Source of the DNA: Paracoccaceae bacterium
Lineage (GTDB): Bacteria; Pseudomonadota; Alphaproteobacteria; Rhodobacterales; Rhodobacteraceae
DNA: 64,000 nucleotides
Assembly (NCBI GenBank): GCA_009773375.1
Contig: WRPH01000004.1
Location: 62,001-126,000, forward strand
Direction: 5' to 3'
Below the pieces are notes generated by a model that ran no database searches, was not told the DNA's origin, and saw only the letters and a list, made by a program, of their open reading frames with translations. Position numbers and translations under genes: made by a program. Positions 51,596 through 55,156 of this stretch are shown here, piece after piece (the first letter of the stretch is position 1; each line of letters opens with the position of its first letter).

Positions 51596-52039
51596 ATGCC
51601 CGCGATGAAGCTGCTGCAATCCTATCTGGATCAAATCGGCACGGCGGTTCTGGTGGGCGATTGGGACACCTATCGCGCGCATGTCGAGTTGCCGTTCACC
51701 CTGATCACCGAAACCGCGACGCTGAACGTCGATACCGAGGAAGACCTGCGCAAGGGCTTCGACAGCTTTTACGACATGCTGAAGTTTCAGAAGGTGACCC
51801 AGTATATCCGCTTGGCGGATTCTGCCGTTGACCTCAGTGATACGCTGATTGTGGGCCGCTATGTGTCGCATTTCATCGCCGGGGCGCATCGGATCATTCC
51901 GCCATTCCGGTCCACTATGACGCTGCGCCTGATCGGCAATCGCTGGCGCGCGGTTGCCATCACCAACTCCATCTCGAACATGCAGTGGCCGATACAGGTG
52001 CCGCGCGTGGATCAGCCCCTGAAAGGAGCCGACAAATGA
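51596..52039 (+). CDS. NTF2/SnoaL-like small protein
   Basis: 147 residues. The pattern LLQSYLDQIGTAVLVGDWDT, then YRAHVELPFTLITETAT and later FRSTMTLRLIGNRWRAVAIT suggests the cone-shaped alpha+beta barrel of the NTF2/SnoaL superfamily (an aromatic-lined pocket used for binding or isomerisation). I cannot name a subfamily. It begins at the base after the cupin stop and its stop overlaps the next start (ATGA), so it is part of the coupled unit. Confidence 0.75.
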   Translation: MPAMKLLQSYLDQIGTAVLVGDWDTYRAHVELPFTLITETATLNVDTEEDLRKGFDSFYDMLKFQKVTQYIRLADSAVDLSDTLIVGRYVSHFIAGAHRIIPPFRSTMTLRLIGNRWRAVAITNSISNMQWPIQVPRVDQPLKGADK

Positions 52040-54219
52040 CCGACTTTACCTATGCCGTAGACGCTGATGGCGTGGCGACGATCACCTGGGATGTGGCGGC
52101 CAAGTCGATGAACGTGATGTCAACGCAGGCCTTCGCGCGGCTGAGCGATCTGGTTGATCTGGGGCTGGCCGATCCGGGCGTGAAGGGGATGATCATCACC
52201 AGCGGCAAGAAGGATTTTGCCGGCGGGATGGATCTGAACGTGATCGCCGAGATGCGGGCCGGGGGCGCGCAGGCGATCTTTGACGGCGTGATGCGGATGC
52301 ATGGCGTGTTGCGCAAGATTGAACTGGCGGGGATGGATTTCAAGACCAGGAAGGGCGGCAAGCCGATTGTAGCGGCGCTGCCGGGCACCGCGCTGGGCAT
52401 CGGGCTGGAACTGCCGCTGGCCTGTCACCGCATCATTGCCGCTGATAACCCCAAGGCCAAGATCGGCTTGCCGGAAATCATGGTCGGGATTTTCCCCGGC
52501 GCGGGAGGGACGACGCGGCTGGTGCGCAAGCTGGGTGCGATGATGGCGGCCCCCTTCCTGCTGGAGGGCAAGCTTTCAGACCCGAAGGCGGCGAAAATGG
52601 CCGGGCTGATTGACGAGGTGGTCGCGCCCGAGGCGTTGTTGGTGCGGGCGAAGGAATGGGTGCTGGCGGCGAAGGATGCCGATCTGGTCAAGCCGTGGGA
52701 TGACAAGGGCTACAAGATGCCCGGCGGCGCGCCCTATCATCCGGCGGGGTTCATGACCTTTGTCGGCGCGAATGCGATGGTGCTGGGCAAGACCATGGGG
52801 GTTTACCCGGCGGCGAAGGCCCTGCTGGGCGCGGTCTATGAAGGCGCCTTGGTGCCGTTTGACGTGGCTTTGCGAATCGAGGCGCGGCATTTCACCGGCG
52901 TGCTGCTGAACCCGTCTTCGACAGCGATGATCCGCAGCCTGTTCATCAACAAAGAGGCGCTGGAGAAGGGCGCGAACCGGCCTGCCGTGGCGGATCAGTC
53001 GGTGAAAAAGCTGGGGGTGATCGGCGCGGGGATGATGGGGGCGGGGATCGCCTATGTCGCAGCACTGGCGGGGATCGAGGTGGTGCTGATCGACGCCGCC
53101 CAAGACAGCGCGGATCGTGGTAAGGCGCATTCCGCCGATCTGCTGGACAAGGGCATTCAGCGCCGCAAGGTGACGGCCGAGAAGAAGGCCGAGGTGCTGG
53201 GGCGGATTTTGGCCACCACCGATTATGCCGCGTTGGCGGGCTGTGATCTGGTGGTGGAAGCGGTGTTCGAAGATCCGAAGGTCAAGGCCGAAGTCACCGC
53301 GAAAGTGGAGGCTGCGGTGGGGGCGGAGTGCATCTTTGCGTCGAATACCTCGACCCTACCGATCTCAGCGCTGGCCAAGGCGTCGGCGCGCGCCGATCAG
53401 TTCATCGGTATCCATTTCTTCAGCCCGGTCGACAAGATGAATCTGGTCGAGATCATCCGCGGCAAGCAAACCGGGGATCGGGCGGTGGCGAAGGCGCTGG
53501 ATTTCGTCCGCGCCATCCGCAAGACGCCGATCGTGGTGAACGACGCGCGGTTCTTCTACGCCAACCGCTGCATCATTCCCTATATCAACGAAGGCATTCG
53601 CATGGTGGCCGAAGGGGTCGCGCCCGCCTTGGTGGAAAACGCCGCCAAGCTGGTGGGGATGCCGCTGGGGCCGCTGCAACTGGTCGATGAAACCTCGATC
53701 GATCTGGGGGTGAAGATCGCAAAAGCCACGCGGGCGGCGATGGGCGCGGCGTATCCCGATGGCGCGGTGGATGCGGTGCTGTTCTGGATGGCGGATCAGG
53801 GGCGGCTGGGGAAAAAGTCGAACGCCGGGTTCTATGCTTATGACGCAGCGGGCAAACGCGAAGGGCTGTGGACTGGATTGGCGGTGCAGTATCCGCATGC
53901 CAGCGACCCGGATTTGACCACGGTGCAGCACCGTCTGCTGATGGCGCAGGTGCTGGAGGCGGTGCGGGCGCTGGAAGACGGCGTGCTGACCGACATCCGC
54001 GAAGGCGATGTCGGCGCGATCCTCGGTTGGGGCTTTGCGCCGTGGTCGGGCGGGCCGTTTGCCTGGCTGGATATGATCGGGGCTTCGCGCGCGGTCGAGA
54101 TTTGCGATGCGCTGGTGCAGGCGCATGGCGCGCGGTTTGAAGCCCCCAAGCTGCTGCGCGACATGGCGGCGCAGGTGCAAAGCTTTTATGGCCGGTTCGC
54201 GGCGCAAAAGGCCGCGTAA
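52036..54219 (+). CDS. Bifunctional enoyl-CoA hydratase / 3-hydroxyacyl-CoA dehydrogenase (FadJ/FadB-like)
   Basis: 727 residues. The N-terminal crotonase domain (about 1-190) carries KDFAGGMDLNVI and GLPEIMVGIFPGAGGTTRLV. The NAD-binding domain (about 330-510) carries LGVIGAGMMGAGIAYVAALA, LVVEAVFEDPKVK, FASNTSTLPI and FIGIHFFSPVDKMNLVEII. Two C-terminal dehydrogenase domains follow (FYANRCIIPYINEG, GWGFAPWSGGPFAWLD). It hydrates enoyl-CoA and oxidises the hydroxyacyl-CoA, feeding the thiolase encoded upstream. Start with AAGGAG upstream and ATGA overlap. Last gene of the operon. Confidence 0.96.
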   Translation: MTDFTYAVDADGVATITWDVAAKSMNVMSTQAFARLSDLVDLGLADPGVKGMIITSGKKDFAGGMDLNVIAEMRAGGAQAIFDGVMRMHGVLRKIELAGMDFKTRKGGKPIVAALPGTALGIGLELPLACHRIIAADNPKAKIGLPEIMVGIFPGAGGTTRLVRKLGAMMAAPFLLEGKLSDPKAAKMAGLIDEVVAPEALLVRAKEWVLAAKDADLVKPWDDKGYKMPGGAPYHPAGFMTFVGANAMVLGKTMGVYPAAKALLGAVYEGALVPFDVALRIEARHFTGVLLNPSSTAMIRSLFINKEALEKGANRPAVADQSVKKLGVIGAGMMGAGIAYVAALAGIEVVLIDAAQDSADRGKAHSADLLDKGIQRRKVTAEKKAEVLGRILATTDYAALAGCDLVVEAVFEDPKVKAEVTAKVEAAVGAECIFASNTSTLPISALAKASARADQFIGIHFFSPVDKMNLVEIIRGKQTGDRAVAKALDFVRAIRKTPIVVNDARFFYANRCIIPYINEGIRMVAEGVAPALVENAAKLVGMPLGPLQLVDETSIDLGVKIAKATRAAMGAAYPDGAVDAVLFWMADQGRLGKKSNAGFYAYDAAGKREGLWTGLAVQYPHASDPDLTTVQHRLLMAQVLEAVRALEDGVLTDIREGDVGAILGWGFAPWSGGPFAWLDMIGASRAVEICDALVQAHGARFEAPKLLRDMAAQVQSFYGRFAAQKAA

Positions 54220-54222
54220 GGG

Positions 54223-55156
54223 TCAGTTCGGGCGGCGCTTGGCGGCAGATTTCTTGGTGAATTTGCCGGCAGCGCGGGTCTTGGCGGCCACCATTGCTTG
54301 CGAGTTGGTCACTTCTTCAGAGGTCAGCTTGCGCCAGCTGTCCAGACGGCGGGCATCGACGCGGCCCGCCTTGATCGCCGCCTGCACGGCGCAGCCGGGC
54401 TCGACGCTATGCTTGCAGTCGCGGAAACGGCAATCGGCGGCAAGGTCGATCAGGTCGGCGAACAACACGTCGATGCCGTCTGCCACATCGGTCAGCTGCA
54501 ATTCGCGCACGCCTGGGGTGTCGATCAGCCAGCCACCTTGCGGCAGCGGCAGCAGATAGCGCGCGGTGGTGGTGTGGCGTCCCTTGGCGTCATCTTCGCG
54601 GACCGCCCCGGTCGCCAGTGTGCCGCCCGACAAGCTGTTGGCCAGCGTGGATTTTCCCACCCCGGAAGACCCCAGCAGCACCACGGTCTGACCGGCCCGG
54701 CACCACGGCGCAAGCGCTGCCACATCGCCGGATTTGGCGTTCAGCGCCACCACCGCCATGCCTTGCGACAGCCCTTGGGCGGCAGCAACATAGGGGGCCG
54801 GGTCGGCCTGATCGGCCTTGGTCAGCACCACCACCGGGGTAATTCCGGCGGCATGCGCCAGCACCAGATAGCGTTCCAGCCGCGCCTCGTTGAAGTCGGC
54901 GTTGCAACAGGCTGGCGCGGGCCAGCACGCGGGCGACGCGCGGGCCATCGGCCAGCACCCAATCGCCCACCGCCATCGCCGCCACCGACAGGTTGGGCGG
55001 GCAGATCAGTTCCACCGGCCCGTCTGCCGTCAGCGCCTGCACCCGGTCGCGGTGCAGCGAGGCCAGCCGCGCGGGCCGCAGGGCGGCGTCTTCGGCGGTG
55101 ATCTGGTCGGAAAACTGGGCAGACCAACCAAGATCGGCAAGCGATAAATGCGACAA
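54223..55156 (-). pseudogene. rsgA: rsgA (ribosome maturation GTPase A) broken by a frameshifting deletion
   Basis: The N-terminal OB-fold part (TTG at 55156 with AAAGGA six bases upstream; SLADLGWSAQFSDQ, NLSVAAMAVGDWVLADGPRV) reads in one frame down to ARASLLQR near 54898. The GTPase part (CNADFNEARLERYLVLAHA, VVLTKADQ, LLGSSGVGKSTLANSL, LIDTPGVREL) and the Cys-rich tail (CRFRDCKHSVEPGCAV) continue in another frame. The usual ~20-25 residues between them, including the IAANVDT segment, are missing. The junction bases TGCAACGCC would encode both LQR and CNA, which suggests deletion between 9-base direct repeats. Functional RsgA cannot be made from this copy unless the sequence is in error. 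Confidence 0.82.

Follow-up and report, generated by a model that had tools for sequence, protein, structure and literature searches.

RsgA (also YjeQ, YloQ or EngC) is a circularly permuted GTPase acting in late 30S maturation. A review (PMC6912228) describes it as widely conserved though not essential, and another (PMC10582724) reports that the deletion of rsgA in E. coli is suppressed by the overexpression of Era. Here, we describe an rsgA gene from a 64,000-nucleotide stretch of Paracoccaceae DNA, hereafter called the window, which was very probably inactivated in the recent past when 80 nt flanked by a repeated short sequence, TGCAACGCCG, were deleted.

Both halves of RsgA are clearly recognisable in the window, in different frames (Table 1), as claimed by the first-pass annotation and as borne out by the minus-strand translations, the alignments and the profile scores. 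Yet, a functional RsgA has its OB fold and its GTPase in a single open frame, which is not the case here. The N-terminal half counts 83 codons ahead of the repeat and likely starts at the TTG at 55156, which is preceded by AAGGA 6 bases upstream; its translation (LSHLSLADLGW...GDWVLADGPRVARVLARASLLQRR) departs from RsgA thereafter. This OB-fold half is 69.5–73.3% identical to those of four intact relatives over about 101 aligned positions. Taken alone, it matches no model of Pfam or NCBIfam, and the Pfam domain RsgA_N (PF16745) did not detect it in a profile search of the genome, where the two sub-cut-off matches of this model (17.4 and 11.8 bits) both lie on other contigs. The identity of the N-terminal half is therefore taken from the alignment alone. 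Frame 1 stays open past the junction until a stop at 54590, so that the predicted product would have 188 residues, native up to residue 87 or so.

Frame 2, one base on from frame 1, reads CNADFNEARLERYLVLAH... until its stop, and this C-terminal half scores 133.6 bits against PF03193 (cut-off 30) and 129.8 bits against TIGR00157 (cut-off 100), while two longer NCBIfam models of RsgA remain far under their cut-offs (140.2 bits where 360 are required, and 84.9 where 483 are). Its translation features the motifs TKAD, NAKSGD, GSSGVGKS, TTT and DTPG, which we take to be the permuted series G4-G5-G1-G2-G3, and it retains the motif CRFRDCKHSVEPGC (CRFRDCKH...C), predicted from sequence to bind zinc. 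The best solved chain by sequence for this half is 6h4d_A, and the 12 PDB sequence matches are 11 proteins named RsgA, EngC or YjeQ and one EngC-domain protein. Among named GTDB contigs, the best four matches all belong to Cypionkella, with 82–85% identity over the C-terminal half, in a search that may exclude the genome of the window and very near ones.

Table 1. Features of the disrupted rsgA locus (positions in the window).
Feature	Position	Strand	Basis or remark
Junction, one surviving copy of the 10-base repeat TGCAACGCCG	54897..54906	(-)	comparison with relatives
rsgA N-terminal (OB-fold) half, frame 1	54908..55156	(-)	alignment to 4 intact relatives
Frame-1 reading from TTG 55156 to stop 54590	54590..55156	(-)	188 aa, the first 87 or so native, the others foreign
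rsgA C-terminal half, frame 2 (permuted GTPase and zinc motifs)	54223..54906	(-)	PF03193, TIGR00157; stop 54223
Possible stand-alone GTPase of 241 aa	54223..54948	(-)	open frame from ATG 54948

We compared the locus to its counterparts in 14 further genomes from the same genus (the Cypionkella group; rsgA loci L010–L023). All 14 have a match to rsgA and all read through the junction region in one frame, with an additional 80 nt at this point in 13 of them (L010–L022) and 77 nt in the last one (L023); none carries the shortened sequence in a single frame, a pattern that the first-pass annotation had named as speaking against a deletion. One genome (G014) has a second, more distant copy of the gene (L024), which also aligns in one frame; this copy was missed by our junction-pattern count and is not included in the figure of 14.

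The first-pass annotation attributed both the loss and the frameshift to a deletion between 9-base direct repeats. The repeat itself is found in the relatives, in register, while its length has to be corrected to 10 bases (TGCAACGCCG): in two of the nine relatives tested (L011 and L014), the same ten bases recur without mismatch at the two ends of the segment, and the flanks match at 10 of 10 positions in two, 9 of 10 in three and 8 of 10 in four of these loci (L010–L018). Moreover, the left flank of the window is the one adjoining the left copy and its right flank the one adjoining the right copy, as expected from the loss of one repeat and of the segment. A deletion between direct repeats at the origin of the frameshift is thus well supported by the sequences of the relatives. 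The 9-mer TGCAACGCC, considered as evidence of a repeat by its count in the window, was rejected: it occurs once for 1.7 occurrences expected by chance, so its mere presence proves nothing, and the evidence is instead the two in-register copies in the relatives. At the junction, frame 1 still encodes LLQRR and frame 2 CNA, in line with the LLQR and CNA first proposed, so that 23 residues (A99–S121 of L011) are lost to both frames, within the 20–25 or so estimated at first.

In this scenario, the 80-nt segment separating the two copies of TGCAACGCCG would have disappeared, in all likelihood through slippage during replication or some other deletion at short homologies, with a single repeat copy and a shifted reading frame as the outcome. 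Ribosomes starting at the TTG would then make about 87 native residues followed by some 100 foreign ones. The residues encoded in neither frame include G101, G103, QLIAANVD (107–114) and V119, all invariant in the nine aligned relatives, and in an AlphaFold model of the intact L011 (mean pLDDT 75) two strands (106–110 and 115–121) fall within the lost segment, which is thus predicted to hold the linker between OB fold and GTPase as well as the strand that opens the permuted GTPase core. Since the lost piece contains the LIAANVD motif, which along with a complete OB/GTPase junction is absent from both frames of the window, and this first core strand, the gene is most likely null, neither half being expected to function as RsgA.

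A second rsgA, for which the first-pass annotation suggested a search, was not found in the draft genome (71 contigs, 92.7% estimated completeness): the profile search with RsgA_GTPase returned one match over the cut-off (134.1 bits), the other 12 reaching at most 25.6 bits. Other 30S factors are present in the genome, i.e., RbfA, RimM, KsgA and Era (recognised from sequence), and the loss of RsgA may be tolerated through such factors.

Apart from the deletion, the gene shows no decay. Neither half has an internal stop. The 13 loci aligned with it (L010–L022) agree with one another in 123 columns, none of which is changed in the window, while the same count gives 0 to 5 for each of the other rows; the C-terminal half accounts for 101 of these unchanged columns and the N-terminal half is informed by 22 only. 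These columns contain about 265 nonsynonymous sites (44.3 + 221.0), and under neutrality the lack of any change would cap the age of the break at some 0.011 changes per site (95%), for a dS of about 0.7 between the window and its nearest relatives. The dN/dS picture, computed from these sequences, is mixed as regards a relaxation of selection. In the N-terminal half, the ratios of the window to L010–L014 (0.19–0.39) exceed those of these five loci among themselves (0.04–0.16), and the same holds in the C-terminal half (0.08–0.13 vs. 0.03–0.06). When measured against L015, the window is higher than the others in the N-terminal half (0.53 vs. 0.31–0.42) and just under them in the C-terminal half (0.186 vs. 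0.193–0.240).

Because nothing has decayed beyond the deletion, the break is either very recent or an artefact of assembly, PCR or strain mixture, in which case the rsgA of the organism would be intact and the deletion of the contig false or carried by a minority. That the deletion is the sole lesion of the gene and that the genome is a draft both go in the direction of an artefact. Yet, the change is not a homopolymer slip but a loss of 80 nt whose two ends share a short homology in the relatives. Usual assembly k-mers are far longer than a 10-base repeat, which makes a collapse by the assembler unlikely. In addition, rsgA is the only gene judged to be truly split when the ORFs of the corresponding regions of four relatives are considered (about 54.2–60.9 kb), the other split flags over this interval being, as judged by eye, shadow frames or overlapping alignments, and other broken copies of rsgA are known in the family sample (see below). 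We thus regard an artefact as unlikely, and the break as probably genuine, a recent deletion at short repeats of an ordinary kind.

That the C-terminal frame is expressed alone, as a GTPase–zinc protein devoid of OB fold and retaining some function, appears still much less plausible. The G and zinc motifs are kept, the frame is open over 241 codons from an ATG, and the invariant C-terminal columns are all intact, but no ribosome-binding site is evident by eye at this ATG (54948), such a protein would lack the first core strand along with the invariant LIAANVD motif, and the N-terminal half is just as undecayed, as far as its few informative columns can tell. Finally, a programmed +1 frameshift fusing the halves into a shortened RsgA is hardly credible even though the frames are one base apart at TTGCAACGCC, as the two-frame split is seen at the junction in 0 of the 14 genus relatives and a frame-shifting ribosome would still make a protein without about 23 linker and core residues, and thus without part of the GTPase core.

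The surroundings of the gene also differ from those in four of its relatives. In the window (interval 51985–54223), a fadJ-like gene (under the FadJ cut-off) ends 3 bases short of the rsgA stop codon, while in four genus relatives the gene lying 3' of rsgA is presumably dnaX, judging from its start; synteny is hence broken at the 3' end of rsgA. At the DNA level, no near match was found in plasmids, and the distant matches amounted to 32 records, none with at least 80% query coverage, in searches that may exclude the window's own genome and very near ones.

The first-pass annotation considered that RsgA is rarely lost, which does not hold for the family. In a sample of 295 genomes (about one per genus, of which 260 are good), RsgA_GTPase has a match at E ≤ 1e-12 in 144 genomes (130 of the good ones) and none in 151 (130 of the good ones), when the best 11 candidates per genome are scored, while RbfA is found in 285 genomes (257 of the good ones), nearly all candidates being scored in this case. 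With the same threshold, nine of 14 named control genomes were matched, the bacteria without a match being Caulobacter vibrioides, Thermus composti and Deinobacterium chartae. Since Sulfolobus and Methanosarcina, included as controls, are matched by the model too, a match does not by itself establish a true RsgA. Our search of the open-licence literature returned no report of rsgA loss in the family (Rhodobacteraceae/Paracoccaceae).

The window is not the only case of a broken rsgA among the 144 matched genomes, at least three others having one (G155, G167 and G036). In G155, a one-contig genome, the gene is cut just after the P-loop and its halves are 2.35 Mb apart (L142 and L143 on G155:C1, at about 501 kb and 2854 kb). 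In G167 (L144) and G036 (L145), it lies in two frames, which may reflect a real frameshift or a sequencing error. Conversely, five genomes have two strong matches each (G014, G207, G219, G263 and G307).

To follow this distribution along the phylogeny of the family, we used a marker tree inferred by a quick method from DapB and RbfA (404 columns), for which 100 marker regions were taken from the 295 genomes and five without dapB were dropped, leaving 95 genera (51 with RsgA and 44 without). This tree is weak, 42 of its 92 inner branches being open and one row (g294) being very long, and two genomes with broken copies (G000 and G155) were scored as having RsgA. The minimum number of changes in presence is 24 on the full tree, 16 when branches below 80 are collapsed and 11 when those below 95 are collapsed, for means of 31.8, 24.9 and 13.4 with shuffled labels; 1, 0 and 46 of 500 shuffles, respectively, were at or below the observed values. 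The congruence between RsgA and the marker tree (Mantel r 0.42, with 6 of 2000 permutations as high) was computed on 13 genomes, i.e., those of the 29 with an extracted RsgA that are also in the tree. This fits a partly vertical descent and is compatible with transfer too, for which reason gains of RsgA are indistinguishable from losses. Annotated rsgA genes occur on plasmid records of Leisingera sp. S132, Rhodobacter sp. CZR27 and Paracoccus seriniphilus, which makes a gain by transfer possible.

On balance, we lean towards RsgA being a repeatedly discarded and sometimes plasmid-borne factor in this family, the window offering a view of one loss shortly after the event. If true, about half of the genera would complete their 30S subunits without RsgA, and the family would therefore be a natural comparison set for the dispensability of the protein. 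The patchiness of RsgA makes testable which changes in ribosomal proteins or assembly factors accompany life without it, and is a better lead than the deletion of the window, which matters mainly as a fresh example within a patchy family.

When compared to described RsgA proteins, the C-terminal half of the window gene shares the permuted G motifs and the zinc motif, but the OB half lies in the other frame and the OB/GTPase junction is missing. With respect to pseudogenes born from slipped mispairing, for which no difference was found (the ancestral sequence of the window gene being deduced from its relatives), the shared features are the survival of a single repeat copy, the disappearance of its counterpart together with the segment and the shift in frame, as in a textbook, ordinary event.
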